Source: Marvania coccoides
Taxonomy: Eukaryota > Chlorophyta > Trebouxiophyceae > Chlorellales > Chlorellaceae
Length of the DNA: 64,000 nucleotides
Assembly (NCBI GenBank): GCA_963854735.1
Contig: OY978103.1
Coordinates: 682,001 to 746,000, forward strand
Direction: 5' to 3'
Part shown: positions 22,033 to 43,393 of the stretch, in pieces
How positions within the stretch are numbered: the first letter of the stretch is position 1
Layout of the letters: every line of letters starts with the position of its first letter
Notes under the pieces: generated by a model
The model's database searches: none
Told to the model about the DNA's origin: nothing
Seen by the model: only the letters and a program-made list of their open reading frames with translations
Made by a program: the position numbers and the translations under genes

Positions 22033-22695
22033 ACTTTGATGCGTACTTTGAATTGTTCTGCTGCCTGCGCTAGGCTCAACAGAGCCCTGAGCGATTGGCG
22101 CTGCATAAAAATCCTCGATTATTTTGATCAAGAAACTAAAGGCGATGCGGGTTCTGGCCGAGCCAGGGATCTTAGGGTTTGTTGAAGTGAGATGCCGATT
22201 AAAATAAACTGTATTGACGAGCGAGGGCGGGGGATGATCGTATGCAGCTGCTCCAATTCTCCTCATCAAAGGAGCAGCCCTTTTTTTCTTTCTTTCGGCA
22301 AGCGCATGGCCACAGGCAAGGAAATTGTGGGTCCTCTGAAGACTGGCATAAGGGCTTCCTCAACTTACAGCTAAACTAAAAATAATTCACTCCATACCTC
22401 CTCTGTTGGTTGCCCCCGACAGAGTCGAGCTCGCCAGCGCAGCAGCCTCTTTCAGCCCACTCTGCCCTTCTCACGACAGCTCCGGCTCCTTGAGAAAACT
22501 AGACCCACTGCAATCGCTTCTGCTGGTCCCATTGAGGGTCCCCGTTGTGCCCACCTGATGAAACCTCTTGCACCGGCTCTGCCGCTACGTTTGTTATGGC
22601 CTTCATTATCGACTTGTACCCCTCCATCTCGTTGATTTTGACAAAAAAACACATTGCAGCGCCGGGAGTGGGCGTGATACGGAACTTTTAAGGTA
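22033..22695. other. Intergenic upstream of the left palindrome arm
   Basis: No gene supported. This unique DNA is flanked on the right by the outer edge of the inverted repeat at 22696. Confidence 0.5.
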
Positions 22696-22712
22696 CGCGA
22701 GAGGCTCTGGTT

Positions 22713-23563
22713 CCGGACTGGACACTAAAAGCAAGACGAGCGACGGTGAAAATTTGCCCATGAGAAAAGGGGTTGCAAACTTCGCTGCAAGCTGCCAGAA
22801 GTTTTTTAATGCATCACAAGTACCTCTATTATGGGCGCTGCCGCCTTTTGCCTTCATTTATGTTTCAAATAAAATGTTGATGTTGTTAAAAATTTCCAAC
22901 ACCACCAATCAGAACGCATTCAAGCGAGCTTTTGGTTGTTATTTTGGTGTGTTGTCTCGCTTTATCGCGTATTCCGCCCGTTTTCTCCATCAAAACTGCA
23001 CTTGAAAACATTTCAAATTGTGATTGACAGCTAAATTCCAAGGCAGAAATGACGTGAAATTCACCCCCTCTCGCCTCTGATGCGACTCGCAAGGTGCCAC
23101 CCGCAAACATCCAGGCGAGGGAAGCGCCAACCATCGTGCGACGTGAGATTTATGAACACGACCCATAATGATGCCTGCTTTTGATACTTTTTAAAACTGC
23201 GTGGAAACGCGGCTTTCTGCGCCTCAGATCACGATGAGTGTACTTCTCCATTGAAAATGCGTCGGTACCAGCCAGGAAACCGACGTCCCTCTTTGAAATT
23301 TGGAAATTGGACGTTGCGATTGGACACATTTTTTTTCTCGGTGCAAAATAATCTATCTTTCTTGCCGCACGCCCTCATATTTGAAAGCCACGCCCTCGTG
23401 AGCGTTTAATTTGCCTTGGAATCCGCCACATACTATTCGGAAAGCACACAGCTGCAAGGATTGGGGCCCTCCATGGCAACCCCATAAATCATCTAATAAA
23501 TCGACGCTTCGTCAAACCGGAAAGTCACCGCACCGCCCCCCAGTATTTCCTTCAACCTCGCAT
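22713..23563. other. 5' flank of the CG-1 gene (arm copy L)
   Basis: About 850 bp with no supported coding region. It carries the promoter and 5' UTR of the CG-1 protein. The same DNA is present inverted at 37097-37937, so both gene copies have identical upstream sequence. Confidence 0.5.
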
Positions 23564-26500
23564 ATGCAAGGCGCCAGGACGCAGGCGCACGAGGCTGAGG
23601 CAGCAGAAACGCTTGTCGGCCTCGGGCTCCCCCTTGCCCCCACACGAGACCACCAGGTGAGCCCGGAAACAAAGTAGCGTGTTTGGGGGAATTTACATAA
23701 CTTCCACCCCACCAAGCATAGCTAACGTGAAAAAAGGTTTCTTTGCTCCAGCCGCGCGCAAAGCGCGCCCTGCCAAAAAGTCGCGACGATGATGGCGGCG
23801 ACGTCGGCGGCGATCTCACCAACGAGGGAAAGAAGCGCCTCGCTTCAGCAGACAACAGGGTGCGCCCCGGCAAGGAGCTGACCGACTTGTTTGCCGACGC
23901 GGTGCCCAGCTTCCGCGTGGCTTCCGCCGCAGACGCGGCCCACGCTGAGGACTGCTTTGCCCTCTGGGCGTCCCTGCACGGCAAGACCAACGGCATTCCA
24001 ACCAAGCGGCTGCGCTACGACTACGACGCCACCTACGCGGGCGACACGGAGCTGCTCGAGGCGCTGCGGCGCATCACCACCACCGCGGAGATGGTGGCCT
24101 ACTTAAAAGAGCGCTACAAAAGGGCGACAGGGTCAGGCGGCAAGCGGGCGAAAATGAGCGGCAGCGCCGCAGCGGCTGGCAACCCCGCTGCTGCTCGGCA
24201 GGACGGTTCGCGAGGTGCCACGCTGGCAACAGGAGGCCCACAGGCTGCCGCCGACCCAATTGCCTTGCAGAATGCTGCGATCGCCGCTGAATTGCAGAAA
24301 GCGGCCGCTGTCGCCTCCACCACATCGGTGCCATACCAGCAGCTGCTACAGCTGACCTGGGAGCCTTTGGCTGTGCCTTCGGCGCAATCACAGGACGCTG
24401 CTGCCGCCCCGACGCTGCTGCAGCAGCAGCAGCAGTTGTCAGCGCTTCAAGCGGAATTTGTGGCAGTACAGCAAGCCACCGACGCGCTGCAGCAGGCAGT
24501 GGCTGCTGCCCCTGCCGCACTCCCCACAGCGTCAGCAGCTGCTCCACCGCCCTCGCAAGGCGGCGCAGTGCCCACTTTCCCGCTGCCGCTGCTGCCGCTG
24601 CCGCCTCCCACCGCGCTGGTGCAGCTCCAGCCTCTGGCCTCGCGGTCTGGCGCCGTGGAGATCACCTCTGATCTCCCGGGCCTCAACAAAGACGCTGACG
24701 CGGCGGCAGCGGTGCAAATAGCCACGCAGGGGCGTTCCCTGTCCACCAACGCTGTGGCGCTCCTGCTGGACAAGGCCGACGAGCTGGGGCTGCCGCGCTC
24801 GGATAAGGTGCCGCCCAACCCCAAACGTGAGTTTCTTTTCATTTGTTTCCTGATTCGTATGGCAGATTTTGATTGGATGCAGTATGATTCGACAGCAAAA
24901 CATGACATTTTGCGCCTTCTCACCAAGAAAACTCGTTTCCCCCTTTTCTTTTTCTCGCAGCCGGGATGCTGTTTCTAGTGACGCTCAACCTGTCGCCCTC
25001 CCCCACCAAAAATTCCCCTTCGATGCCCAAGGGCGACGGCTTTGTCGGCAAAAACAGCCACCAGAATTTGAGGCCTAAGGGCCAGTCCGCCACTATCAAA
25101 GCCATCTACCACAGCCTGCCGGACGGATCGCTGCAGCGGCGGTGCTACCACCACAGCGTCGCCCCCCGCCAGGTGCTGGTGCACTACCTGGTCCCCAAAG
25201 CACCCCCCCCCAAAAAGCGCGCCACCGCTGACGGGCCAACACTGCAGCCGCAGGCTGCGCAGCAGCAGCAGCGCGCTGAGCCGGAGGAGACAGCGGAAGA
25301 GGATATGCCCATGGCCCCTTCCTTCGAGTTTGCCATGCCGCAGGCTGGCTCGCCGCTGCCGCCCTTCCAGCCGGCTTCGGCATCGCAAGGCGTTGAGCCG
25401 CCGCCCCGCCCCTTGGCGTCCAGCCAGCCGCAGCACCGCGCTGCGGCTTCTCTGGAGAGCCCCGCCACCATGCTGGGGCTGTCTGTGAGGGCGCTGATCG
25501 CGGTGGGTGTGCGGTTTAGGCTGCAGGGGGACGCTGCCGCCGGCAGCACCATCGTGAGGGAGACTGTGGTGCAGGGGGTGAACAGGGTGTGCAGCAACGC
25601 GGCCAACCGCCCTGGCGCTGCCGCCAAGGAGCGGGAATTGGACGATGAGGGCCTGAGGGCGCAAATTACGGCGCATTTCGACGGCACCAGCTGGGACAAG
25701 CTGAGCCCCACCGAGCACGGGGCGGTGTGGGCTGAGCTGGTGGAGGATCGGAGCGAGCTCACCAAGGTGTCTCGGCTAGTGGACGAGGTGATGCTCGAAA
25801 TCGCCGCAGAAACCGAAGGAAAAGGCGCGAAAAGCCCGGAGAAAGAGGCGGCGGCGATTGTGGTAAAAGCAGCGCCGCCACCGCCGCCACTGCAGCGCGG
25901 CTTGTATCGCGCAGGAGACGCGGCATCGTTCCGGCGGCCGCGATACATCCCGCAGTTTACCACGTGGGCACTGGTGACCATCGGCGTGCGGTTCAGGCTG
26001 GGGCCCTCCTCCCAAATCCCGTTTGAGCGCGTGATTGAAGAGGTGAACCGAGTGAGCGAAAACAAAGACATCTCCTGCCACAGCGCCTTTGAGGAGCACG
26101 TGCTGGTGAAGGACGTGCTGGAGGAGCAGCTGGAGGCCCACCTGGGCACCACGTGGCTGGGGCTCAACCGTGCAGAGCACGAGCAGGATTGGCAGGATCT
26201 GGTGAAAATTAAACTGGAAGAATCCAAGGTGAACAACCTCATCGATCGGGTGATGGCGGGGATGGGGATCTACACGCCGCCCGTGTCCACCGAAAGAGTT
26301 GTCAGCAGGAGCAGGAAACAGAATGGCCATGACGGGGCGGCAGCAGCTGCTGTGCCGCAGCAGAAGCAGGGTGCGGTTGAGGAAAGCGGGCTGGCTGGCT
26401 CCGGCAAAGCCACCGCGTTGCCTTCTTCGCCCACTGCTGCTTCGCTGCCCCCGGCGGCGGCGGCCTTTGATGGTGCGGAAAAGAGGGCGGCGGCGCATGC

Positions 26501-26747
26501 AGTGGCGGCGGCGGTGGAGCTGCTGCAGGCAGCTTCGACAGACAAAAAGCCGGAGATGGCGCGCGCGCTGATGCAGCTGTACCTCTGCGACGGCATCACC
26601 AAGGCCATGCGGTCCTTTGTGACCTACCTTTTGAAGGACGTCACTCACGACATGATGGTGTTTCACTTTGAGATGATCCGCAACTGGATGGTGAAGGGGG
26701 ATGTGGAGGAGGTGAATGCTTGGGTTCTGGGATTTTGTGACAAATAA
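23564..26747 (+). CDS. CG-1-domain (CAMTA-like) putative transcription factor, copy L
   Basis: Three exons (23564-23656, 23752-24826, 24961-26747), 984 residues. Residues about 361-470 read as a divergent CG-1 DNA-binding domain: ALLLDKADELGLP, PPNPKPGMLFLV, DGFVGKNS, then SLQRRCYHHSV and VLVHYLVP, matching the FQRRxYW and IVLVHY ends of CAMTA proteins. Upstream is an unrecognised conserved-looking block (GKELTDLFADAVPSF to YLKERYKRA, about 70-145) and a Gln/Ala/Pro-rich linker. Downstream, two copies of an approximately 100-residue helical module (about 560-670 and 722-825) share VGVRFRL or IGVRFRL, VNRV, TxWxxLxxxEHxxxWxxLV and LVDEVM or LIDRVM. I see no ankyrin repeats or IQ motifs, so calmodulin regulation is doubtful. 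Probably nuclear. Convergent with the 251-aa gene. Confidence 0.75.
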
Positions 26748-27171
26748 AAGATGACTGGCGAGTACTGCTTTTTCCCTCGAATAAATATTTTGTTTTCCCC
26801 CTTTCGGCGTATTTTTTCTTTTTGCTCTGTGTGCGTCAAGCACAATGTACAATGTTTTTCTTTACATATTTTTAAATACATAGACATTCGCTACTTTTTT
26901 ATATGTTTTTCTATCCGACGATTTGATGAAAATACAAAATCATATTTAATGAAAATACCAAGAACACAGCCAGCGCTGCACACAAATGTTCACAGCACCA
27001 GTGAAGACAGAAAGAGGGGGGAGGAAGAACGATCACGATGGCTTGGAGAATGGAAACAAGGGGGGGGGACAGCAGCAACAAAGGAGTAGTAACAAAAGGG
27101 AAAGGGAGAGTGAAAATGCAACGACCGCCATTCAACTCAACACTCAATGAACAGCATGTGCGAGATACTGA
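26748..27171. other. Convergent 3' flanks (mirrored at 33489-33912)
   Basis: About 420 bp between the ends of the CG-1 gene and the 251-aa gene. It contains AATAAA at about 26779 for the CG-1 transcript. No other feature seen. The same sequence occurs inverted in the right arm. Confidence 0.45.
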
Positions 27172-27927
27172 TCACAGGAGGGACTCCATGATGTGCTCGT
27201 TGGGCACGTAGGGCAGGTACACGAGGAGGTCTTCCACCAGCACAGCCAGCTCCTGCTCAGCAATCTGCTCATGTGCCAGCGGCAGCGGGACCGCCCCCTG
27301 CCCTCCCCTCAGGAAGACCTCCTCTCCCTCCGCCTCCACCAGCACCTTGCCTGCCTCCAACGAGGCGTCTCCGCCGTCCAGATGGTGGTCAACAAGGCCT
27401 GCCTCGGTGGCCAAGGCCCGCACGACGTCCTCTGCCGCAGTGCCAATCGGCGCGGCGTCCACCGCTGTGATCTCCTCGGCTTCCTCCATTACGTCGTACA
27501 GCCCCTCCTCCTCCATTAGCATGGCGATCCCCTCCTCTGCCGGGACGACCACCTGCACCTCCCCCAGGTATCCCACGTGGCCTGCAGCGGTGATGCTCAC
27601 CACCACAGCGTCCACCAGAGAGCGGATCAGAACAGCGTTCCTCGTCGCAATCGCTTGCTTCCACAGTTCGCGCGCTTCCACGCGGTGCTTTACCAATTCA
27701 GTCCAGTTCATGCCTCCGAGGAGGGCGTCGCAACGCTTGAGCATCGTGGAGTGCGACAGCATGCCCAGTTTCAGTCCTCGTTTTTTTATCTCCACGTTGA
27801 CGAACTTGCAAATGACCTTTGCCTTGGTCTTGTCGGTGCGCAGGCTGCGATCGGCACTGCCGCAGCGAGTCCTGGTGCCGGCGGCAACCAGCGTCTGCAC
27901 ATCATTTGCGCGGGGGCGTCCTGCCAT
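27172..27927 (-). CDS. Unknown 251-residue protein, copy L
   Basis: Unspliced frame from ATG 27927. The ATG lies 14 nt after an acceptor-like GTGCAG, so a 5' UTR intron is likely. The N-terminus is basic and Cys/Arg-containing (MAGRPRANDVQT, RCGSADRSLRTDKTKAK), then an amphipathic helical block (VNVEIKKRGLKLGMLS, NWTELVKHRVEAREL). The C-terminal half is strongly acidic and Val/Leu-rich (EEEGLYDVMEEAEEIT, EHIMESLL). The segment NWTELVKHRVEA has the same kind of W-x-x-L-V-x-x-R/K pattern as the module in the adjacent CG-1 protein (VWAELVEDRSEL), so a shared domain is possible. No family recognised. Divergent from the 138-aa gene. Confidence 0.65.
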   Translation of the reverse strand: MAGRPRANDVQTLVAAGTRTRCGSADRSLRTDKTKAKVICKFVNVEIKKRGLKLGMLSHSTMLKRCDALLGGMNWTELVKHRVEARELWKQAIATRNAVLIRSLVDAVVVSITAAGHVGYLGEVQVVVPAEEGIAMLMEEEGLYDVMEEAEEITAVDAAPIGTAAEDVVRALATEAGLVDHHLDGGDASLEAGKVLVEAEGEEVFLRGGQGAVPLPLAHEQIAEQELAVLVEDLLVYLPYVPNEHIMESLL

Positions 27928-28636
27928 CTTGAGAAGAAGGCCTGCACAGCAAAGGCAATATCAGGCCTAATGCGACGAATTGGGAGAAATATATGTAGGG
28001 CGTATAAGAGAGTTGGGCTTGCGCGTGCAAACTTCAGAAAACCGCGAATTTTCGGAAATAATTTATTTCAAATTTTGCAAGCGGTCTCCGCAGATGCACG
28101 AGGTGGAAATGCTATCTGTATATGGCGGACTTGCCTTGCTAGCGTTTGTCCGGCGAGGGCGCGTGTTTTTGCCGAAGATCAGTTTGTCAATCAGTGGTAA
28201 TGTGTGAAAACCAGAGGCGGCAGACACCGGTCTCCGCTCCGATCAATGGGTATAACAATTGGAGACGTTTATAATTTAAATAAAAAACAAAAACACCGCT
28301 TGCCTTTACCACAGCAGCCTTTTTCTGGGAAAGAAATGGCCACTGCGCGTAGAAGAAGAAAGTGCTGGGCAGGCTCCCCGCAATTTTGGGGTCCGAGTGC
28401 AACCAGGTGTCCAGTTGTTGTATTTGTTGTATTTTTCACACTCTGCTACATAAAAACAGTATATCTTAAAGTCATAGACACAAAGGTGAGTCCAGCGGCG
28501 GAGAGAGCCTGTTTCTTCCATGTTTTTTTTTAAATGGAAGCGATCGCGGCGAGGTTCCCCGCAAACCAATGCTTTCTCGTGCGGCCCACGCCAAAAAGAG
28601 GACCCATAAACATGTTGTGACCATGGTCTGCAGGAG

Positions 28637-29053
28637 ATGGACCCCAATGACCGTGCCCGCCAGGAGGTGGCAGCCGAAGGGATCAAGCTCTCCATCGAAC
28701 ACATAGGCTTCCTCCGTCGGCTCCATGAAGGCCCTCCCCCCAATGAAAGGGTGCAGTTGATCAGCAAGACCAAGGACAGCATGGCCAAGGCGATGCTGGC
28801 CGTGATATGCCGCATGGTCAGCGGCGAAATGACGGACGAGGAGTTCGTCTGGCTCGTGCAGCAAGGCAACTTCCCAACTGCGTGGCTCAACGTCCTGCCC
28901 CCCTCGTTCCCCCCTGGCCCTCCCGTTTCGCCGCAGGGAGCAGCAGAGAGCAACAGGGTCTACGACTGCAGCGACAATGAACACGCCGCCGCTGGCGGCA
29001 TGCAACACGTGCAGCAGGAGCGCCAAGACTCTTCCCCGCCTTCCCTCGACTGA
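28637..29053 (+). CDS. Unknown 138-residue protein or last exon, copy L
   Basis: Open frame preceded directly by an acceptor (GGTCTGCAG ends at 28632). The protein is helical in its first 75 residues (DRARQEVAAEGIKLSIEHIGFLRRL, QLISKTKDSMAKAMLAVICRMV) and Pro/Ser-rich at the end. The frame also continues 5' through the splice site in phase 0 to a possible exon ending at 28485 (VYLKVIDTK|E). In that model translation could begin at 28336 (MATARRRRK) and the protein would gain a membrane helix (PVVVFVVFFTLCYI). I list only the part I trust. The repeated GFLRRL and SGEMTDEEF motifs do not match a family known to me. Confidence 0.5.
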   Translation: MDPNDRARQEVAAEGIKLSIEHIGFLRRLHEGPPPNERVQLISKTKDSMAKAMLAVICRMVSGEMTDEEFVWLVQQGNFPTAWLNVLPPSFPPGPPVSPQGAAESNRVYDCSDNEHAAAGGMQHVQQERQDSSPPSLD

Positions 29054-29284
29054 ACAGAGCAACGACGAAAAAATAATTTGGAAATGATGAATCTTTGACG
29101 GATACCTCAAAAATTTACAAATGTACATGTGAAAATTTGGAAGTACTGGCCCACCACGTCCTCTCTTTCTCTCTCTTTCCCCCCCTTTCATTCAAACACC
29201 TCAAGGCACCTTCGTTTAACATTCTGCTGGACTGCAGTCCCATGGTTGCTCTTTCATTTTGGCATTTTTCTGCGCGTTCGTTGC

Positions 29285-29475
29285 TCCTTCCGCGCGTCCA
29301 TTGTCCTCCATTCAATCCTTTTGAACACTCCGCGTTCGCTAGCAAAAGTTGTGTTGCTCAATGTGCAGCGCACCCCCGCTGCGCCCTGTTCTCTGTAAGG
29401 CCCAGTCACACGCTCTCCAGCATGAGCAGATGCAGGCGTAGCAGCAGCGGCAGCAAGAGAGATTCCTAGTAAGGG
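29285..29475 (-). pseudogene. Relic of SPRTN C-terminus crossing the left inner junction
   Basis: About 190 bp resembling 38240-38430, the end of the intact SPRTN gene, at roughly 80% by eye. The peptide PAHAGERVSGPYREKGAAG of SPRTN appears here as ASAHAGERVTGPYREQGAAG, but the zinc-finger codons (CPIC...H...C) are lost. The relic runs without a break across the end of the left arm at 29366, so the left arm and spacer were contiguous before the inverted copy formed. Confidence 0.8.
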
Positions 29476-29540
29476 CGTCGGGAGTTGCGCTGGCGTAAAA
29501 ACGGTGGGTGTCTCAGTCACACCTGGCCGTCCTCGTCCAT

Positions 29541-30020
29541 TTATTTTATACACAACGTGATTTCTAAGAAGCAAGTGTCGTCGATGCACAGCTCCACAAC
29601 CGCGGCAGGCATAATGAGGGGGACGCGCACGTTGCTTTTGTCGATCGCATACACGCAAGAGAATACATCTGGGTCGCCATAGAATTCCTGCAGGGCTGTA
29701 CGAAAACGGACAGGAAATGGGAAAATGGGTTTCGCAGGCCGGGCAGAGTGGGAGACAAGAAACGAAGAAGAAAAGCAGTCACCCCCATCCCCGCCCCCCA
29801 TCATTAATTCCAACGCATCATTAATTCCGACGCCAGCCTACTAGCATCAACCAAAAAGAGTGGTTCGAACTCACCACTTGCCAGCGCGAACAGCACGGCG
29901 GTGCCTGAGCCAGGAGTAGAGAATTCGTCGGCCTTCAGCATGCTACAGCCGAGCCACCACGCCGCCGTCGGCAGGCGCCTCAGGATGGGGTTGTTCCATC
30001 GCAAGGGGGGTGATAGCGAC
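29541..30020 (-). CDS. Unidentified two-exon gene or gene end in the spacer
   Basis: Exon 30020-29875 and exon 29695-29541 join in phase (AGTG|GTGAGT donor, CGTACAG acceptor) to give about 100 residues: LRWNNPILRRLPTAAWWLGC, FSTPGSGTAVLFALAS, then ALQEFYGDPDVFSCVYAI, VRVPLIMPAAVVELCIDD and a stop. The upstream side begins at an acceptor (GGTACAG), so at least one more exon is expected; none was found in the remaining spacer. The clean splice phase and protein-like composition argue that this was a real gene, perhaps now 5'-truncated by the rearrangement. Family not recognised. Confidence 0.5.
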
Positions 30021-30534
30021 CTGTACCGACAATATTATAACTTTGAAAAGAGAAACGAGCAACAAAGCTTCGTCCATGAACTGATCAGGCGGAGGTGATA
30101 GAGAAAATGATGCTAAACTAAACCCTCCACCGGGCTGAGCGCCCCCGCGCCCCAGATCCACGCTTAGCTTTAGTTACTGCTGACGACGATAAAAATACAT
30201 CTAAAAAAAACACAAAAAACGCGGGGAATGCCGCCCTGTTTGCCACAGACGCGACGCTGTTGAAGAGGAAATCACTTACCACCGCAACTAAAAAGTTAAC
30301 TGGCCCCAATTGACGAAATCCAGCAAGAAATGGCTTTTCTTAATAAAAAAATCAAATGCCCAGAATACTCCGATAATCAAGCTCGTCTTATTTAAAAAAA
30401 ATAAGATGTAAGAGTCCCCAGCGGGGGGAACCCAGTAATAGGTGCCAAAGAGAATGCAATTTATTTATTTTTGTCAAAGCCACCACCCAGCTGCAGCTGC
30501 TGCTGCTACTGCTGTTTCGCGAGCTTGGCAACTT

Positions 30535-31200
30535 TATACACGTCGTGATTCATTCCCGATTCGAATTTTGCAGTGAAAACGCTGCGAACACCTTCTCAAT
30601 TCTCCTTTTCTCGGCCCTGCTGGAGCGTTCGGCGGAGCAGCTACGACTTTCCCCTCCCCGCCGCCTTTTTCGCTTCTTTCCACCTTGTCTGGCTCGTAAT
30701 CTAGCTGGGCGAAATTAATGGCCCAGAGTAATTTGGAGACGGTGATGCACTTCAAGCCTGTGGGGCGGGGTGAAGGGTGTCACCGCCAGAGACTACAAGG
30801 CGGTGTGGATTGACAGTCCCTGGTAGACCAAGGGGTGCAGATTTCTGGCCGCATGAGGGCAGACCATTTCCAGGTAAATATTTCTTTTAAGTTTGAGCCA
30901 TGTGGTGATATCTTCTGCTGTCCTCCATTTGCTAGGATTCTCTTTACCATAGTCGTTTTGCTGTGATAAGATGGGTTGATTATGAGGAAAACGTGTATTT
31001 TGCGCAGATTACTCGTTTGGAGTGCTGCGGCGGCTGGCAGAGGTGGGCGTCAGCGATGCCGCTGGCGAGAGGCTGAGGTGTGGAGGAGGACGCACCCTGG
31101 GGAGCGAAAGGGTGGGAGTAGGAGAGAGAGAGGGGGCGTCAGTCTGGGGAAGGTGTTAAAAGAACGTTACAGAGAACAAAAATGATGAAGTAAGGCATGA
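30535..31200 (+). pseudogene. Internally deleted relic of the DAG lipase gene
   Basis: Two blocks match the intact gene at 40239-43393. 30535-30735 corresponds to about 40065-40385 (upstream region and start of exon 1), including the identical run CCTCCCCGCCGCCTTTTTCG. 30750-31200 corresponds to about 42905-43436 (end of exon 4, intron 4, exon 5 and 3' flank). Intron 4 is still present, so this is a DNA-level copy, not a retrocopy. The missing 2.5 kb removes the membrane helices and the GHSLG active site. Stops and indels break what remains. Confidence 0.88.
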
Positions 31201-31606
31201 TACATAAACCAGTTTCGCTATTAGAGGGTGGAGTAAAACGGCAAGGAAACGTTGGCAGCACTAGGATCGTCTGCTCATGCCGGGAAATCGTGAGCACATT
31301 GGGCAACACAACTTTTGCTAGCGAACGCGGAGTGTTCAAAAGGATTGAATGGAGGACAATGGACGCGCGGAAGGAGCAACGAACGCGCAGAAAAATGCCA
31401 AAATGAAAGAGCAACCATGGGACTGCAGTCCAGCAGAATGTTAAACGAAGGTGCCTTGAGGTGTTTGAATGAAAGGGGGGGAAAGAGAGAGAAAGAGAGG
31501 ACGTGGTGGGCCAGTACTTCCAAATTTTCACATGTACATTTGTAAATTTTTGAGGTATCCGTCAAAGATTCATCATTTCCAAATTATTTTTTCGTCGTTG
31601 CTCTGT

Positions 31607-32023
31607 TCAGTCGAGGGAAGGCGGGGAAGAGTCTTGGCGCTCCTGCTGCACGTGTTGCATGCCGCCAGCGGCGGCGTGTTCATTGTCGCTGCAGTCGTAG
31701 ACCCTGTTGCTCTCTGCTGCTCCCTGCGGCGAAACGGGAGGGCCAGGGGGGAACGAGGGGGGCAGGACGTTGAGCCACGCAGTTGGGAAGTTGCCTTGCT
31801 GCACGAGCCAGACGAACTCCTCGTCCGTCATTTCGCCGCTGACCATGCGGCATATCACGGCCAGCATCGCCTTGGCCATGCTGTCCTTGGTCTTGCTGAT
31901 CAACTGCACCCTTTCATTGGGGGGAGGGCCTTCATGGAGCCGACGGAGGAAGCCTATGTGTTCGATGGAGAGCTTGATCCCTTCGGCTGCCACCTCCTGG
32001 CGGGCACGGTCATTGGGGTCCAT
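31607..32023 (-). CDS. Unknown 138-residue protein or last exon, copy R
   Basis: Mirror copy of 28637-29053, identical. The possible upstream exon is mirrored at 32175-32324. Nothing distinguishes it from copy L except the spacer-side flank beyond 31294. Confidence 0.5.
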   Translation of the reverse strand: MDPNDRARQEVAAEGIKLSIEHIGFLRRLHEGPPPNERVQLISKTKDSMAKAMLAVICRMVSGEMTDEEFVWLVQQGNFPTAWLNVLPPSFPPGPPVSPQGAAESNRVYDCSDNEHAAAGGMQHVQQERQDSSPPSLD

Positions 32024-32732
32024 CTCCTGCAGACCATGGTCACAACATGTTTATGGGTCCTCTTTTTGGCGTGGGCCGCACGAGAAAGCATTGGTTTGCG
32101 GGGAACCTCGCCGCGATCGCTTCCATTTAAAAAAAAACATGGAAGAAACAGGCTCTCTCCGCCGCTGGACTCACCTTTGTGTCTATGACTTTAAGATATA
32201 CTGTTTTTATGTAGCAGAGTGTGAAAAATACAACAAATACAACAACTGGACACCTGGTTGCACTCGGACCCCAAAATTGCGGGGAGCCTGCCCAGCACTT
32301 TCTTCTTCTACGCGCAGTGGCCATTTCTTTCCCAGAAAAAGGCTGCTGTGGTAAAGGCAAGCGGTGTTTTTGTTTTTTATTTAAATTATAAACGTCTCCA
32401 ATTGTTATACCCATTGATCGGAGCGGAGACCGGTGTCTGCCGCCTCTGGTTTTCACACATTACCACTGATTGACAAACTGATCTTCGGCAAAAACACGCG
32501 CCCTCGCCGGACAAACGCTAGCAAGGCAAGTCCGCCATATACAGATAGCATTTCCACCTCGTGCATCTGCGGAGACCGCTTGCAAAATTTGAAATAAATT
32601 ATTTCCGAAAATTCGCGGTTTTCTGAAGTTTGCACGCGCAAGCCCAACTCTCTTATACGCCCTACATATATTTCTCCCAATTCGTCGCATTAGGCCTGAT
32701 ATTGCCTTTGCTGTGCAGGCCTTCTTCTCAAG

Positions 32733-33488
32733 ATGGCAGGACGCCCCCGCGCAAATGATGTGCAGACGCTGGTTGCCGCCGGCACCAGGACTCGCTGCGG
32801 CAGTGCCGATCGCAGCCTGCGCACCGACAAGACCAAGGCAAAGGTCATTTGCAAGTTCGTCAACGTGGAGATAAAAAAACGAGGACTGAAACTGGGCATG
32901 CTGTCGCACTCCACGATGCTCAAGCGTTGCGACGCCCTCCTCGGAGGCATGAACTGGACTGAATTGGTAAAGCACCGCGTGGAAGCGCGCGAACTGTGGA
33001 AGCAAGCGATTGCGACGAGGAACGCTGTTCTGATCCGCTCTCTGGTGGACGCTGTGGTGGTGAGCATCACCGCTGCAGGCCACGTGGGATACCTGGGGGA
33101 GGTGCAGGTGGTCGTCCCGGCAGAGGAGGGGATCGCCATGCTAATGGAGGAGGAGGGGCTGTACGACGTAATGGAGGAAGCCGAGGAGATCACAGCGGTG
33201 GACGCCGCGCCGATTGGCACTGCGGCAGAGGACGTCGTGCGGGCCTTGGCCACCGAGGCAGGCCTTGTTGACCACCATCTGGACGGCGGAGACGCCTCGT
33301 TGGAGGCAGGCAAGGTGCTGGTGGAGGCGGAGGGAGAGGAGGTCTTCCTGAGGGGAGGGCAGGGGGCGGTCCCGCTGCCGCTGGCACATGAGCAGATTGC
33401 TGAGCAGGAGCTGGCTGTGCTGGTGGAAGACCTCCTCGTGTACCTGCCCTACGTGCCCAACGAGCACATCATGGAGTCCCTCCTGTGA
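32733..33488 (+). CDS. Unknown 251-residue protein, copy R
   Basis: Mirror copy of 27172-27927, identical protein and identical upstream acceptor-like site. It lies between the 138-aa gene (divergent) and the CG-1 gene (convergent) as in the left arm. Function unknown; possible relation to the CG-1 protein's C-terminal module is only a pattern match by eye. Confidence 0.65.
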   Translation: MAGRPRANDVQTLVAAGTRTRCGSADRSLRTDKTKAKVICKFVNVEIKKRGLKLGMLSHSTMLKRCDALLGGMNWTELVKHRVEARELWKQAIATRNAVLIRSLVDAVVVSITAAGHVGYLGEVQVVVPAEEGIAMLMEEEGLYDVMEEAEEITAVDAAPIGTAAEDVVRALATEAGLVDHHLDGGDASLEAGKVLVEAEGEEVFLRGGQGAVPLPLAHEQIAEQELAVLVEDLLVYLPYVPNEHIMESLL

Positions 33489-33912
33489 TCAGTATCTCGC
33501 ACATGCTGTTCATTGAGTGTTGAGTTGAATGGCGGTCGTTGCATTTTCACTCTCCCTTTCCCTTTTGTTACTACTCCTTTGTTGCTGCTGTCCCCCCCCC
33601 TTGTTTCCATTCTCCAAGCCATCGTGATCGTTCTTCCTCCCCCCTCTTTCTGTCTTCACTGGTGCTGTGAACATTTGTGTGCAGCGCTGGCTGTGTTCTT
33701 GGTATTTTCATTAAATATGATTTTGTATTTTCATCAAATCGTCGGATAGAAAAACATATAAAAAAGTAGCGAATGTCTATGTATTTAAAAATATGTAAAG
33801 AAAAACATTGTACATTGTGCTTGACGCACACAGAGCAAAAAGAAAAAATACGCCGAAAGGGGGAAAACAAAATATTTATTCGAGGGAAAAAGCAGTACTC
33901 GCCAGTCATCTT

Positions 33913-36900
33913 TTATTTGTCACAAAATCCCAGAACCCAAGCATTCACCTCCTCCACATCCCCCTTCACCATCCAGTTGCGGATCATCTCAAAGTGAAAC
34001 ACCATCATGTCGTGAGTGACGTCCTTCAAAAGGTAGGTCACAAAGGACCGCATGGCCTTGGTGATGCCGTCGCAGAGGTACAGCTGCATCAGCGCGCGCG
34101 CCATCTCCGGCTTTTTGTCTGTCGAAGCTGCCTGCAGCAGCTCCACCGCCGCCGCCACTGCATGCGCCGCCGCCCTCTTTTCCGCACCATCAAAGGCCGC
34201 CGCCGCCGGGGGCAGCGAAGCAGCAGTGGGCGAAGAAGGCAACGCGGTGGCTTTGCCGGAGCCAGCCAGCCCGCTTTCCTCAACCGCACCCTGCTTCTGC
34301 TGCGGCACAGCAGCTGCTGCCGCCCCGTCATGGCCATTCTGTTTCCTGCTCCTGCTGACAACTCTTTCGGTGGACACGGGCGGCGTGTAGATCCCCATCC
34401 CCGCCATCACCCGATCGATGAGGTTGTTCACCTTGGATTCTTCCAGTTTAATTTTCACCAGATCCTGCCAATCCTGCTCGTGCTCTGCACGGTTGAGCCC
34501 CAGCCACGTGGTGCCCAGGTGGGCCTCCAGCTGCTCCTCCAGCACGTCCTTCACCAGCACGTGCTCCTCAAAGGCGCTGTGGCAGGAGATGTCTTTGTTT
34601 TCGCTCACTCGGTTCACCTCTTCAATCACGCGCTCAAACGGGATTTGGGAGGAGGGCCCCAGCCTGAACCGCACGCCGATGGTCACCAGTGCCCACGTGG
34701 TAAACTGCGGGATGTATCGCGGCCGCCGGAACGATGCCGCGTCTCCTGCGCGATACAAGCCGCGCTGCAGTGGCGGCGGTGGCGGCGCTGCTTTTACCAC
34801 AATCGCCGCCGCCTCTTTCTCCGGGCTTTTCGCGCCTTTTCCTTCGGTTTCTGCGGCGATTTCGAGCATCACCTCGTCCACTAGCCGAGACACCTTGGTG
34901 AGCTCGCTCCGATCCTCCACCAGCTCAGCCCACACCGCCCCGTGCTCGGTGGGGCTCAGCTTGTCCCAGCTGGTGCCGTCGAAATGCGCCGTAATTTGCG
35001 CCCTCAGGCCCTCATCGTCCAATTCCCGCTCCTTGGCGGCAGCGCCAGGGCGGTTGGCCGCGTTGCTGCACACCCTGTTCACCCCCTGCACCACAGTCTC
35101 CCTCACGATGGTGCTGCCGGCGGCAGCGTCCCCCTGCAGCCTAAACCGCACACCCACCGCGATCAGCGCCCTCACAGACAGCCCCAGCATGGTGGCGGGG
35201 CTCTCCAGAGAAGCCGCAGCGCGGTGCTGCGGCTGGCTGGACGCCAAGGGGCGGGGCGGCGGCTCAACGCCTTGCGATGCCGAAGCCGGCTGGAAGGGCG
35301 GCAGCGGCGAGCCAGCCTGCGGCATGGCAAACTCGAAGGAAGGGGCCATGGGCATATCCTCTTCCGCTGTCTCCTCCGGCTCAGCGCGCTGCTGCTGCTG
35401 CGCAGCCTGCGGCTGCAGTGTTGGCCCGTCAGCGGTGGCGCGCTTTTTGGGGGGGGGTGCTTTGGGGACCAGGTAGTGCACCAGCACCTGGCGGGGGGCG
35501 ACGCTGTGGTGGTAGCACCGCCGCTGCAGCGATCCGTCCGGCAGGCTGTGGTAGATGGCTTTGATAGTGGCGGACTGGCCCTTAGGCCTCAAATTCTGGT
35601 GGCTGTTTTTGCCGACAAAGCCGTCGCCCTTGGGCATCGAAGGGGAATTTTTGGTGGGGGAGGGCGACAGGTTGAGCGTCACTAGAAACAGCATCCCGGC
35701 TGCGAGAAAAAGAAAAGGGGGAAACGAGTTTTCTTGGTGAGAAGGCGCAAAATGTCATGTTTTGCTGTCGAATCATACTGCATCCAATCAAAATCTGCCA
35801 TACGAATCAGGAAACAAATGAAAAGAAACTCACGTTTGGGGTTGGGCGGCACCTTATCCGAGCGCGGCAGCCCCAGCTCGTCGGCCTTGTCCAGCAGGAG
35901 CGCCACAGCGTTGGTGGACAGGGAACGCCCCTGCGTGGCTATTTGCACCGCTGCCGCCGCGTCAGCGTCTTTGTTGAGGCCCGGGAGATCAGAGGTGATC
36001 TCCACGGCGCCAGACCGCGAGGCCAGAGGCTGGAGCTGCACCAGCGCGGTGGGAGGCGGCAGCGGCAGCAGCGGCAGCGGGAAAGTGGGCACTGCGCCGC
36101 CTTGCGAGGGCGGTGGAGCAGCTGCTGACGCTGTGGGGAGTGCGGCAGGGGCAGCAGCCACTGCCTGCTGCAGCGCGTCGGTGGCTTGCTGTACTGCCAC
36201 AAATTCCGCTTGAAGCGCTGACAACTGCTGCTGCTGCTGCAGCAGCGTCGGGGCGGCAGCAGCGTCCTGTGATTGCGCCGAAGGCACAGCCAAAGGCTCC
36301 CAGGTCAGCTGTAGCAGCTGCTGGTATGGCACCGATGTGGTGGAGGCGACAGCGGCCGCTTTCTGCAATTCAGCGGCGATCGCAGCATTCTGCAAGGCAA
36401 TTGGGTCGGCGGCAGCCTGTGGGCCTCCTGTTGCCAGCGTGGCACCTCGCGAACCGTCCTGCCGAGCAGCAGCGGGGTTGCCAGCCGCTGCGGCGCTGCC
36501 GCTCATTTTCGCCCGCTTGCCGCCTGACCCTGTCGCCCTTTTGTAGCGCTCTTTTAAGTAGGCCACCATCTCCGCGGTGGTGGTGATGCGCCGCAGCGCC
36601 TCGAGCAGCTCCGTGTCGCCCGCGTAGGTGGCGTCGTAGTCGTAGCGCAGCCGCTTGGTTGGAATGCCGTTGGTCTTGCCGTGCAGGGACGCCCAGAGGG
36701 CAAAGCAGTCCTCAGCGTGGGCCGCGTCTGCGGCGGAAGCCACGCGGAAGCTGGGCACCGCGTCGGCAAACAAGTCGGTCAGCTCCTTGCCGGGGCGCAC
36801 CCTGTTGTCTGCTGAAGCGAGGCGCTTCTTTCCCTCGTTGGTGAGATCGCCGCCGACGTCGCCGCCATCATCGTCGCGACTTTTTGGCAGGGCGCGCTTT

Positions 36901-37096
36901 GCGCGCGGCTGGAGCAAAGAAACCTTTTTTCACGTTAGCTATGCTTGGTGGGGTGGAAGTTATGTAAATTCCCCCAAACACGCTACTTTGTTTCCGGGCT
37001 CACCTGGTGGTCTCGTGTGGGGGCAAGGGGGAGCCCGAGGCCGACAAGCGTTTCTGCTGCCTCAGCCTCGTGCGCCTGCGTCCTGGCGCCTTGCAT
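33913..37096 (-). CDS. CG-1-domain (CAMTA-like) putative transcription factor, copy R
   Basis: Exact mirror copy of the gene at 23564-26747, exons 37096-37004, 36908-35834 and 35699-33913, same splice sites and the same 984-residue protein. Promoter and terminator regions are also duplicated, so both copies should be expressible. Identity of the two proteins over almost a thousand codons, synonymous sites included in the stretches compared, means that the duplication is very young or kept uniform by gene conversion. See the copy L entry for domains. Confidence 0.75.
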
Positions 37097-37954
37097 ATGC
37101 GAGGTTGAAGGAAATACTGGGGGGCGGTGCGGTGACTTTCCGGTTTGACGAAGCGTCGATTTATTAGATGATTTATGGGGTTGCCATGGAGGGCCCCAAT
37201 CCTTGCAGCTGTGTGCTTTCCGAATAGTATGTGGCGGATTCCAAGGCAAATTAAACGCTCACGAGGGCGTGGCTTTCAAATATGAGGGCGTGCGGCAAGA
37301 AAGATAGATTATTTTGCACCGAGAAAAAAAATGTGTCCAATCGCAACGTCCAATTTCCAAATTTCAAAGAGGGACGTCGGTTTCCTGGCTGGTACCGACG
37401 CATTTTCAATGGAGAAGTACACTCATCGTGATCTGAGGCGCAGAAAGCCGCGTTTCCACGCAGTTTTAAAAAGTATCAAAAGCAGGCATCATTATGGGTC
37501 GTGTTCATAAATCTCACGTCGCACGATGGTTGGCGCTTCCCTCGCCTGGATGTTTGCGGGTGGCACCTTGCGAGTCGCATCAGAGGCGAGAGGGGGTGAA
37601 TTTCACGTCATTTCTGCCTTGGAATTTAGCTGTCAATCACAATTTGAAATGTTTTCAAGTGCAGTTTTGATGGAGAAAACGGGCGGAATACGCGATAAAG
37701 CGAGACAACACACCAAAATAACAACCAAAAGCTCGCTTGAATGCGTTCTGATTGGTGGTGTTGGAAATTTTTAACAACATCAACATTTTATTTGAAACAT
37801 AAATGAAGGCAAAAGGCGGCAGCGCCCATAATAGAGGTACTTGTGATGCATTAAAAAACTTCTGGCAGCTTGCAGCGAAGTTTGCAACCCCTTTTCTCAT
37901 GGGCAAATTTTCACCGTCGCTCGTCTTGCTTTTAGTAAACCAGAGCCTCTCGCG

Positions 37955-38260
37955 GACTTCATTGCCATCTATTCAGTTAAGGAAAATAATCGTGGAAGCA
38001 GAGGGAAGGTCAATTGCGCATGCGGTACCTTCGCCTGAAAAGAAACGTTCCAGTGGCCCATGGATTCATTACAAATTTGTTCGTTATTATTGTCAGTCGT
38101 TTTAAACCGCAACATTCGTTTGTTTGGAAATGGAAATGAAGGAGAAAATTTCATTTTAAACACCCACAGAAAAGCCCATGACAAGAAATGCGAGGCCACC
38201 GCCTCGTTTATAAAAATACAGCTGAGCACCAGAAGTAACCGCGCGTCCAATTTCATTCAT
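37955..38260. other. 3' flank of SPRTN beside the right arm
   Basis: About 300 bp of unique A/T-rich DNA between the palindrome edge and the SPRTN stop codon. No feature seen. Confidence 0.4.
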
Positions 38261-39709
38261 TCAATCCTTCAAACACTTGTTCAAATGGGCGTTCAGGTCA
38301 ACGCCAGCCAAAGATGCGTTGCAAATTGGGCAACGCACCCCCGCTGCACCTTTTTCTCTGTAAGGCCCGCTCACACGCTCGCCAGCATGAGCAGGCGCAG
38401 CAGCAGCGGCGGCGGCGGCATCAAAAGAGATTCCATTTGCTTCCATCCCTTCTTTGCTGCTCTCTCGCCCCTCAAAGCCGCTGCCGGCCCGCGCCCGCCA
38501 CATCGCCGCCGCCTCCATCAGCCTGCGCCGCTCCTCCTGCGAAGGATCCTGCCGCGCCCCACTTCTGCAGCTGCCGCTCGCCCCTCCAGCATCCCTCTCC
38601 TCTCCTCCACTGCTCCCGCCGCCGCCCCCTTTAACTTCCGCTGCCGCCGCCGCCGCTGCCGCCGTCCCTACCCCCGATGCGCCCCCCTGAAAATAGCTCG
38701 AGATAGGGCGCCCAGCAGCAGGCTCTTTCGTCTTCCCACCAGCCGCCGCGTCTCCTTTCTTTTCGCCTTTTGACTTTTTTCCGCCGCCGCTGCTGAACCC
38801 CTCTGGCTCTTTGATTTTGATGAACTCGCCGCCGCACTCCCGAATGTGCCTGTGGTGGGGGCACCCGGGGTCTTTGCACGCCAGCCCAGGCTTCCCCCTC
38901 GTCGACGCGCAGTCTGCAGGCTGCGGTTTTCGGTTTTGCGCTCGCTTAATGACCTGCGCAAATATTTAGTAAAAAAAACACGTTATTCTTATTAATTTAG
39001 AGACGATAAAAAAGCAAGTACTATAGAAATAAGGGGTACAGATGCAGAGAAAACAAAAGAATTGGGATAAAACGACTCAAAAATGACGAGCGGGACAGAG
39101 GGAAAAAGCAAGCGTCTCTCACCTTGCTGCAGCGCTGGCACTGCCACCAGTGCACCCGAAAGTGATCCACCTCCGCGTGCCAGTCGTGCGTCGTAGAAAT
39201 CCGGTACCCGCCCGGAGGGCGCTCGTGGTCAGGCGCTGTACTGCTGTTTATTTGATTCATAATGGCGAGGAAGGGCGGGCCATGGCCCCCAGGGTCAGGG
39301 TCGTGAATTTTCTCCACCATGCAATGCGCGTGGATGAGCTCATGCCTGCGCAACCGGAATTTTGATAAAAAGCTGGGGTAAACAGCTCGCAAAAAGGAGG
39401 TTGAAGGAGAGTGTTTCAAAATTGAGGGTGCGAATTGTGGGGGGCTTACAAGAGAACGGACTTGAGGTCGCGCGAAGGGCGCAGCGAGAGCAAGGGCTGA
39501 GACAGCTTCACGATGGCGCCGCCCAAGCAGCGCTCGCAGGTGCCGCCGCACATCGTCATCCTGGAGGATGACCATTCAACGGAGACGCCTCCCAGACCGC
39601 CTGGAAAATAAATGTCTCGGAAGTGATTGAAGAGGTAAAAGATGTCGGGGTGGGGGTCGGCGAGGTCTTCATTCTCAAGGTAGTCAGCGGGAGGGCCACG
39701 CCTTGCCAT
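38261..39709 (-). CDS. SPRTN: SPRTN/Spartan DNA-dependent metalloprotease
   Basis: Three exons (39709-39450, 39345-39123, 38953-38261), 391 residues. SPRTN degrades proteins cross-linked to DNA at stalled forks. The SprT domain has the HELIH zinc site (H88, E89, H92, third ligand H108 in GGHGPPF), framed by KLSQPLLSLRPSRDL and INSSTAPDHE. The zinc-binding subdomain follows: HWWQCQRC, VIKRAQNRKPQPAD, ECGGEFIKIKEPEGF. Then come FSSGGGK, a likely SHP-type p97-binding box, PISSYF, a likely PCNA-binding motif, an Ala/Gly-rich linker, and a C-terminal UBZ4 finger (CPICNASL...H...C, 369-388). Every part of a complete SPRTN is therefore present. A decayed copy of its end is in the palindrome spacer. 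530 bp separate its start from the divergent DAG lipase. Confidence 0.94.
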
Positions 39710-40238
39710 GGATGGAGAGCGAGCTCAACGAGACATTGTGATCATATATTTTGGACCTAAATTTTGGCCAGCAACTCGAAAGCGCTGCGTCTAAAAATCA
39801 AACAAATGTTGGGTATAAAAAATAAAGGTAGTATGTAGAATAAATAAGTTTTTTTCGCTCGGCAAGTGGCTCAGTTTTCATCGGTTGAAAGACATTTGAA
39901 AACATTTCCATAACAAAAGTATGTATTAATACATCTATATGTTTGTTGACTCGTTGAGCAGTCTCCTGGCTGCCCTGGACGACCCTTCGCCATTGAACTG
40001 AAAATCAAAATCTTTCATTTTCTCCCATTCGCGCGTGCCCCCCAGTTTAGCGAGTTTGCCAACTGTATACATGCCGTGAGACATTCCCGATTTGCATTCC
40101 GCAGCGAAAAGGCTGCGAACACTTTCTCAACTCCTTTTAATTCTCCGCCCAGCTGGCGCGTTTTGCAGAGACCTTGAGAAGGCCCGCTTTTGTCGGCTCA
40201 GCAGCCTTTGACCAAACGCGTTTGACGGTAGCTGCCCC
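39710..40238. other. Divergent upstream region of SPRTN and DAG lipase
   Basis: 530 bp, A/T-rich on the SPRTN side. Its right part (from about 40065) is conserved in the spacer relic at 30535. Probable bidirectional promoter; no frames supported. Confidence 0.45.
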
Positions 40239-43200
40239 ATGCCAGCATTGCGCCTGTTCAACCGGCGCTGGCTGCTTGCCAGCGACGATGTTCCCCTCCC
40301 CGCCGCCTTTTTCGCTTCTTTCCACCTTGTCTGGCTCGCGCTGCTCGTGGCCTGGCTGGGCGAAATAAACGGTCCGGAGGACTGTCGAGGGGTGGGGCCC
40401 TACTACGCAGCGGTGGGGGGTCTCATCGCCAGTTTTGCCGCCAGTTGCCTTTGTGAAATCGCCGCTGTTTTTGTGGGCCTGCGGGGATCGCTGTTCGAGA
40501 CCCAGAAGCGCGCCGCCATGCCCGGCATTTTGTACGCCAATGCTCTGTGCTTTGTAGCGCAGGTGGGCTTCAATGCGTACTGCACGTATCTCATTACCAT
40601 TCGACCGCCTCGCTGCTCTGGCGAGGGCGGCAAGCCCTGGGACCCCGTGGAAGTCATGCAGGGCGCCGTGTGGTGAGAAAATGCATTTATTTCTTTGATT
40701 ACACTCTTATCTTGTGTTTTTCAGCCAGGTTTTGTTTGCTGGGGCCAAAGCTTGCCTCTCTGCTGCGTTGCCGTTTCTCACCTGGAGTCTGCACTGCTCG
40801 AATTTATATTTTTCGTTTGCTGAAAATGCGATTTTCTCCTCTCAACCATTCTACACATCCGAAACCCCCCACTAATTCGTGCATCCTTACGCCCCATTAA
40901 TTGAAGCGAAATGATAACCAACCTTTTAATATTTGCGCAGGTCCACCTGGGCAGCCATTGGCGGCGTCCTCTTCCTCCTTTTCCTCGCCTACAACATATT
41001 TCCCGACTACACCGACCCAAAGGAGTGGCAGGCGCAGTGCCAGTGCCTGGCCGCCGCCTGCTGCTGCCGCGCCCCCCGGCATGCAGGCTCCAACGAGAGC
41101 TACGAGCGCCTGGGCTACCTGTTTGCGCTAATGTTTGGCCACATCGATCTGACGCCCTCAGACGTGCTCACCGCCTTTCTTTTGGCGCTCAACCGGCGGC
41201 GTGCGCAGCGCAGACTGGCAGAGGCGGCAGATGAAGAAAGAGAGGAAGGGGCGGAGGAAGAGTCTCCAAAGCGCCATCGCCATGGCCGACAGCGCATTCC
41301 TAGGAGGTCTATAGCCATCGGGAAAGCTCCCACAATGCGCAGCGCAGCAGCAACCACCTCCGCAGCGGCAACAGCAGCAACTCCGGACGATAGTTTGCCG
41401 TCTCCACCTTCGGGACAGTCCTCCCCTGGAGAAACCTCTGAGGACGGCCTGCTTCAGAGCATGGAGGCGGGCACGAGAAGAGCGGCGGCAGCGGCGGCGG
41501 GGAGTGTTGGTTTACCTGGAAGAAAGGCAGTACGAGTGGTTTCTTTAGATGCGGGAGAGTTGGGGCCTGTGGATGCCAGTACGCTGGATGAGGTGGCGTA
41601 CTACATGCGCTACGCATTTGCAGCGGTACGATTTTGTAATCAAAGAAAGTCGTTTATGTTTAATATACTAATGTGAAATGCTCCATTGCTCACTTGGATT
41701 CTTTCTTCTTTCTTCGTGCAGTATGGCTGGATGCTGTTTGTGTGGGAGCGGAAGACGGCAGGCGTGCTGCAGCTGTGTTGTGGGCGCAGCTGCGGGCTGT
41801 GGACCTCGATTGCGGCTCGCAGGCAGGGCGTGCCTCTCCTGCACGGTGTGCAAGCATCCTACTTCAACCGAGAAGCCATCCTGCAGGTCAGCGTCTCACA
41901 CGTTTAAAAATAAATAGTTTTCCCTGGTACCTTGTATGTCAGCTTAAAGCTGGGCTTTACTCCATTACTATTTTCCCTTCCATAAAGCGAATTAATAAAA
42001 TTAATGGCGGTTTTAATAAAAATTATTGAAGTAGGTATTCTGCAACAAGAATTGAGGTATTTTCTAAATTTTTTAACCTCGCACTGCAGGCAGCAGGAAT
42101 CGCAGTGGAGACCAACCTAGTGGACGTTCGCCTGGCCACTCCCGGCGTCTCTGTGCTACCCTACTTCCTGGCCATCGACGAGGACAAGCACGCGGTCGTT
42201 CTCGCCATTCGCGGTTCCCTCAGTCTGGACGACGTCGTGCGAGACCTTTTATTCGAGCCAGCGGAGCTGGAGGAGTGGGTGGCTGGCGCAGGGCGCGCCT
42301 GGGACGACCCCCTGCCCCCGCTGCAGTTTGCGGCGGCGGGAGCGCGGCATGCGGCGCACAGCGGCATCCTGGAGGCGGCCCGAGCCACGCTGGAAGACAT
42401 TCGATCTTCCGGGGCGCTGGCGCGGCTGCTGATGGGTCCCGCGGCGCGCTGCGCGGGGTACTCACTTTTGGTCTGCGGGCACAGCTTGGGCGCGGGGTGC
42501 GCATTTCTCATCTCTCTGTACCTGCGGCAGTTCTTTCCTGACCTGCGGAGCATGTGTTACTCGCCGCCAGGGGGACTGGCCACCTCGGAGCTCAGCGCGG
42601 GAGCCGCGGAGTGGTGCACCAGCGTGGTTTGCGGTAAGGAGATGGTCCCGCGATTGACCCTGGCTACGTTTGAGCGTGTGCGAAACGAAATCGTGCGGTG
42701 CGCCGCGCACTGCCGCCGCCCGAAGGCCGCCCTGCTGGTGGGTTGGGCGCTGGGGCGGGTGTGGTCGGACGAGGCCCTGTTTTACGAGGAGCCGCTGCCT
42801 GAGCCGCAGCGCTGGCTGGATGGGTATCGTAAGAGTTTAGATGAGACGTCCACGCGGCGAAAAAACGTCGAAATCGCGGGGGTCTTTGGTCCGCCGGGGC
42901 GGGTGATGCACCTGAAGGCTGTGGGGCGGAAAAAAGTGAAGGCGGCGGGGTGGCGGCCGTGGCCGCGGAAGGGTGTCACTGTTAGAGACTACAAGGCGGT
43001 GTGGATAGACAGCCAGTCCCTGGTGGACCAAGGGGTGCAAATTTCTGGCCGCATGATGGCAGACCACTTTCCAGGTGATAATTTCTTTTAAATTTGAGCC
43101 ATCACTGTGATAAAAATCTGCTGAATTTGCCCCCCGGTTCCTTTTTTTTCCTTAATCGTAATTGTTTTACTGGACTTATTTATGGGATGATAATAAGGAC

Positions 43201-43393
43201 ATCGTGTTTTTTTTGCGTAGATTATTCGTTTGCGGTGCTGCGGCGGCTGGCTTCTGCGGGCGGCGAGGGCGCAGAGGTGGGCGTCAGCGATGCCGCTGGC
43301 GAGGCTGAGATGCGGAGGAGGGTGCGCCTGGGAAGCGAGGGGGCGGCAGCAGGAGAGGGAGAGAGAGCTAGAAGAGAGGGAGCGCCGGTTTGA
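40239..43393 (+). CDS. DAGL: sn-1-specific diacylglycerol lipase, membrane bound
   Basis: Five exons (40239-40672, 40941-41625, 41722-41886, 42090-43074, 43221-43393), 813 residues. DAG lipases cleave diacylglycerol to monoacylglycerol and a free fatty acid in signalling. As in animal DAGL, four N-terminal membrane helices (FFASFHLVWLALLVAWLG, GGLIASFAASCLCEIAAVFVG, ANALCFVAQVGFNAYCTYLI, AAIGGVLFLLFLAYNIF) precede a cytoplasmic alpha/beta-hydrolase domain. The serine elbow is VCGHSLGAGCAFL, the preceding strand AVVLAIRGSLSLDD, and the region after it YSPPGGLATS...VVCGKEMVPRLTL is characteristic of DAGL. An inserted low-complexity Ala/Ser region (about 250-345) interrupts the part before the hydrolase core. 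Tail is Glu/Arg/Ala-rich. A deleted relic lies in the palindrome spacer. Confidence 0.9.

Follow-up and report, generated by a model that had tools for sequence, protein, structure and literature searches.

The locus analysed here raises the question of how two facing copies of a three-gene module, with their introns and intergenic DNA, come to be identical along almost their whole length. The window (the whole stretch of DNA that was analysed, 64,000 nucleotides) belongs to the contig of chromosome 7, and by inference the palindrome sits on a nuclear chromosome of a coccoid green alga from fresh water, belonging to the family Chlorellaceae. According to the genome note, assembly ucMarCocc1.1 of Marvania coccoides CCAP 251/1B consists of 13 chromosomes together with mitochondrial and plastid records, with lengths of 2.22, 1.38, 1.31, and 1.0 Mb for chromosomes 4, 7, 8, and 11, respectively (PMC11833223). 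The genome searched in this study amounts to 22,462,713 bp in 15 contigs.

Self-comparison and global alignment placed the left arm at 22696..29366 (plus strand, 6,671 bp) and the inverted right arm at 31294..37954 (minus strand, 6,661 bp). BLAST of the window against itself returned a single long inverted repeat (22693-29366 versus 37957-31294, 99.8% over 6,674 columns), and every difference between the globally aligned arms sits at an edge: a 10-bp gap at 22713-22722 and a mismatch at 22723/37937 on the outer side, and a mismatch at 29358/31302, 8 bp inside the edge, on the inner side. The core at 22724-29357 is the reverse complement of 31303-37936 at 6,634 of 6,634 positions, introns and intergenic DNA included, with the inner centre at 30330. 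The initial annotation, which had described a 15-kb palindrome with near-identical arms, mirror symmetry about 30330, and identical non-coding DNA, is therefore borne out in these respects; it had also listed the outer gap and the inner mismatch, while the outer mismatch had escaped it. Under an even spread of three differences along the arms, the chance that each is no more than 28 bp from the outer or 9 bp from the inner edge is about 2e-7, a value that depends on edge limits set post hoc, when the data had already been seen. Chance origin of a 6.6-kb inverted repeat is far beyond expectation. In a continuous 124-kb segment of chromosome 7, the runner-up inverted match measures 97 bp, and five further repeats found in that segment (E up to 1e-10) all touch the spacer or the inner arm edge. 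When the whole genome (22.46 Mb) was searched with the arm at the DNA level, the only matches beyond the arms themselves were two short ones on chromosome 4 (68-69%).

Inverted repeats are a classic trap in assembly, and the initial annotation had feared an artefact, in which a single true copy would have been joined to its own mirror image. We consider this highly improbable, given the published HiFi sequencing at 1,105-fold depth, with fragments of 12-20 kb on average and a QV of 66.5 (PMC11833223). Such fragments are long enough to span a 6.7-kb arm. In addition, the outer flanks are unlike each other, the 1.9-kb spacer is distinct, the arms carry small differences of their own, and the surrounding 124 kb contain zero N.

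The 1.93-kb spacer named in the initial annotation (29367..31293, plus strand) differs from the arms, but its description needs one correction: most of the spacer is a decayed, shortened duplicate of the right flank (38239-43368) in the same direction, and this duplicate takes in the innermost 77 bp of each arm. Apart from two short dispersed repeats, the spacer matches the right flank at 74-80% in the same direction; most of it is therefore what is left of a tandem duplicate of an SPRTN-like gene and a lipase gene. A remnant of the SPRTN-like gene end lies at 29290..29466 (plus strand, 74% to 38239-38434) and passes without interruption through the left arm's inner edge at 29366; its parent is an open frame at 38261..38965 (minus strand) with a Spartan-like zinc-binding match of 19 bits, below the cut-off of 27. 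Further remnants at 30514..31137 (plus strand) show 74-79% to 40045-40170, 40280-40421, and 42968-43368, the last of which overlaps the 3' part of the lipase gene, a Lipase_3 open frame at 42030..43091 (plus strand, 35.8 bits, cut-off 22). The stretches at 29467-30513 and 31138-31293 had no match in the flank comparison. Since the remnant crosses the left inner edge unbroken and its first 77 bp (29290-29366) are also present in the right arm, we read the order of events as tandem duplication first and inverted copying second, and the assembled orientation of the spacer, which joins the left arm without a break, as the ancestral one. The spacer also contains a dispersed repeat of about 95 bp at 30352-30446 (38 of 42 genome matches, 76-86%, 12 contigs), which occurs on contig 9 as three copies 1,256 bp apart, and a 97-bp segment (30123-30219) that is 88% identical to the opposite strand of contig 7:754288-754382.

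Identical inverted arms that flank a short segment would allow recombination to invert that segment, and the locus might accordingly act as a flip-flop switch like the MAT loci of methylotrophic yeasts, with expression changed when a crossover between the arms turns the spacer round. This appears very doubtful here, because the only genes recognised in the spacer are remnants, the 3' ends of the innermost genes, C, face it, and its assembled orientation is the one read as ancestral.

Both open frames and the existence of paralogs back the three genes per arm that had been proposed. For gene A, three exons are predicted (23564-23656, 23752-24826, and 24961-26747), at 23564..26747 in the left arm (plus strand, 984 aa), with its mirror copy at 33913..37096 (minus strand) in the right arm. 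The predicted protein contains a CG-1 match at residues 361-466, which bridges the second predicted intron and is spread over two exons, together with two helical domains of the type found in gene B. In Pfam, the CG-1 match reached 23.4 bits for gene A of the window against a cut-off of 23.5, and 28.0 bits for the paralog on chromosome 4, whose introns are placed like those predicted for gene A. The genome-wide search for CG-1, run exon by exon, listed chromosomes 1 and 11, and neither gene A nor the chromosome 4 paralog. A Pfam search with the joined A protein and the chromosome 4 paralog (E up to 1) returned CG-1 only, without ankyrin repeats or IQ motifs. Ankyrin repeats and IQ motifs are among the further domains that define CAMTA transcription factors. 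Gene A resembles these proteins in its CG-1 match, which for the window gene falls just short of the cut-off, but differs in that Pfam gave no second domain for its joined protein and a separate, stronger CG-1 gene is located on chromosome 1. Based on the CG-1 match, the gene A product is predicted to be a DNA-binding regulator, with B and C as putative companions, the whole set being present in double dose. An ENA protein of 73 aa is 78% identical to part of A over 58 residues, which shows that a diverged relative has been sequenced in another sample.

On its own, gene A also gave weak matches on chromosomes 8 and 11. Two of them, corresponding to the N-terminal domain and part of the CG-1 domain, lie at 275-284 kb on contig 8, and the longer form of the N-terminal match crosses two stops; they are perhaps a decayed gene A. 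The region at 552-560 kb on contig 11 holds a CG-1 gene with an N-terminal region resembling that of gene A, possibly the founder of the gene A family. Elsewhere in the window, runs of a repeated Phe/Ile/His-rich frame (FIIFIHYFHSLFS) were seen at 9615-9798, within two overlapping open frames that belong to an ATPase-like gene, and these runs suggest a tandem repeat.

Gene B encodes 251 aa at 27172..27927 (minus strand) in the left arm and, as a mirror copy of the same length, at 32733..33488 (plus strand) in the right arm. Its N-terminal 119 aa are predicted to fold into a compact all-helical bundle (pLDDT 83.5, pTM 0.81), for which structure matches were weak, and one domain of about 110 residues could be aligned across two segments of A, gene B, and two chromosome 4 genes (five sequences, 19-38% identity to B). 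Gene C encodes 138 aa at 28637..29053 (plus strand) and, in mirror copy, at 31607..32023 (minus strand, 138 aa), and all three aligned members of its family share an NFP-x-AWL motif. According to whole-genome protein searches, relatives of B and C outside the palindrome occur at one place in the genome only, which is on chromosome 4.

A mobile element or viral segment inserted twice in opposite orientation could in general also produce inverted copies, as a mobile unit can insert twice inversely. We regard this origin as extremely improbable at the present locus: no further full copy of the arm exists in the genome, the arm genes gave no convincing transposase, integrase, or phage match (in two of these searches, A was represented by exon 3), and scans with A exon 3 and B found no viral relative. 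Moreover, each arm ends on its inner side in 77 bp of host flank sequence, and gene A has predicted introns placed as in its chromosome 4 paralog.

Beyond the arms, whole-genome protein searches with A, B, and C revealed one cluster with all three families, at 244-260 kb on chromosome 4. This cluster contains an inverted repeat of its own (244221-246468 versus 254926 downwards; 2,248 bp, five mismatches, 99.8%), each arm of which holds the end of A and a gene designated B', and mismatches are zero in its inner 1,927 bp (244310-246236). Beyond this core, homology continues on the inner shoulder in a decayed state of about 90% with indels, and the shoulder ends in 74 columns with six mismatches and a gap, for which P is about 2e-8 at the rate of the core. 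The end of the repeat is thus far more diverged than its middle, a pattern of the kind left by gene conversion. The left A copy is truncated at the outer end of the repeat. A tandem copy in the same direction, A2, is 94% identical to A1 in the N-terminal domain (dS 0.05) and 40-46% identical in other parts, and this patchy likeness indicates that near-identity at chromosome 4 is not limited to the inverted pair. In the spacer of the chromosome 4 repeat, we also noted a 246-aa open frame without a convincing family match.

Both loci show a mirrored pair of convergent genes, formed by the end of A and a B-type gene, and one ancestral palindrome common to chromosomes 7 and 4 is possible. However, gene C is oriented oppositely in the two cases, and the relationship of B' to B is remote (weak on its own, tblastn E 0.7), which leaves a single shared ancestor unproven. 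Seven comparisons of A, B, and C between the loci, four of which concern overlapping parts of A, gave dS values of 1.1-3.6, near saturation, with amino acid identities of 39-56% and dN/dS of 0.16-0.51. Judged from these substitution estimates, the genes look constrained but long separated. The combination of arms that are alike within each locus and genes that have diverged between loci resembles concerted evolution.

The initial annotation had left the choice between recent origin and active conversion. The chromosome 4 repeat, with its core of 99.8% identity and its decayed shoulder, favours conversion, and recent origin remains a rival. Taking together the differences confined to the edges, the paralogous repeat on chromosome 4, and the contrast between likeness within and divergence between loci, we regard this as a genuine nuclear palindrome and conclude with a probability of roughly 0.62 that non-crossover gene conversion from arm to arm holds the two inverted copies of the three-gene module identical. 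It would have arisen when the SPRTN-lipase stretch was tandemly duplicated and one of the copies decayed; the A-B-C module adjoining the decaying copy would then have been copied in inverted orientation to the far side, carrying the 77 bp along. Pairing of the arms, in a cruciform or between sister chromatids, followed by repair copying, would since have wiped out differences except at the ends.

A recent inverted duplication by template switching or fold-back repair, without any later conversion, would likewise account for zero differences in 6,634 bp with introns and intergenic DNA included, and for the 77 bp of adjoining remnant in the right arm, which are expected if a segment was copied. 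It would also agree with the lack of a decayed shoulder at the chromosome 7 arms: the search for decayed homology beyond them was not significant, the observed score being reached by 58 of 300 shuffles on the inner side and 150 of 300 on the outer side. The differences at the edges would then be copying errors at the breakpoints, and error-prone copying there could indeed cluster changes in this way. Evenly spread mutation, on the other hand, would not yield differences at the edges only, and at the sole other locus where A, B, and C genes occur there is again an inverted repeat, with a shoulder that seems older than its core. Duplication alone is thus a tentative explanation that we find possible but rather unlikely, and upkeep by conversion is preferred. 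GC3 gave no clear sign of GC-biased conversion at either chromosome: the arm genes on chromosome 7 (0.77-0.78) are at the top of the range in seven neighbouring coding stretches (0.65-0.78), and the part of A within the chromosome 4 arm is lower than the rest of A (0.57 versus 0.63).

The likely benefit of conversion between the arms would be two matched copies of a fast-evolving set of regulators (the CG-1-type protein with B and C) that mend each other. A more specific role, in which the palindromes of chromosomes 7 and 4 would serve recognition or an arms race, for instance as a concealed system of mating types or of self-recognition, with CG-1 regulators and B/C kept identical within a locus and driven apart between loci and strains, is speculative and improbable.

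Sex chromosomes are the best-known setting of large gene palindromes, and conversion is regarded there as a substitute for missing recombination; to our knowledge, no sex is known in Marvania. The 15-kb palindrome on a compact algal chromosome and the second inverted repeat, with the same lineage-specific regulator family, on another would test whether palindromes play that part in a budding alga. With public HiFi reads and a sequenced related alga, Picochlorum, conversion, flipping of the spacer, and effects of copy number should be directly measurable.

Near-identical, inverted, gene-bearing arms are shared with the mammalian X and Y palindromes (PMC3403216, PMC8981503), in which ongoing gene conversion has been credited for an arm-to-arm divergence of 0.021-0.028% compared with 1.44% between human and chimpanzee arms (PMC3403216). 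Those palindromes are on sex chromosomes, whereas the Marvania locus is on a 1.38-Mb microalgal chromosome; the initial annotation had drawn a parallel with sex chromosomes and organelles, but nothing observed ties the locus to either, and the genome note gives sex chromosomes as none (PMC11833223). The willow W palindromes are comparable as nuclear palindromes of a plant that carry regulator genes in their arms and are in part subject to conversion, and differ in that two palindromes span 200 kb of a sex chromosome and conversion was tested against a second species (PMC7023750). Palindromes have also been suggested as a peculiar genome feature of parthenogenetic animals (PMC7953838), and Marvania, though not an animal, is for its part reported to divide by budding (PMC11833223). 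In the flip/flop MAT loci of Ogataea and Komagataella, recombination inverts a chromosomal segment, which the Marvania arms would equally allow; in these yeasts, MAT genes lie in the inverted region or are repositioned by it, while remnants alone were recognised in the Marvania spacer. Among the open-licence papers searched, no nuclear palindrome was reported in Marvania or in green-algal mating loci. Gene palindromes kept alike by conversion are already known, and a microalga with two loci that carry a single lineage-specific regulator family is a modestly new case; in organism, chromosome, and gene content, the Marvania palindrome is different from the sex-chromosome cases described so far.
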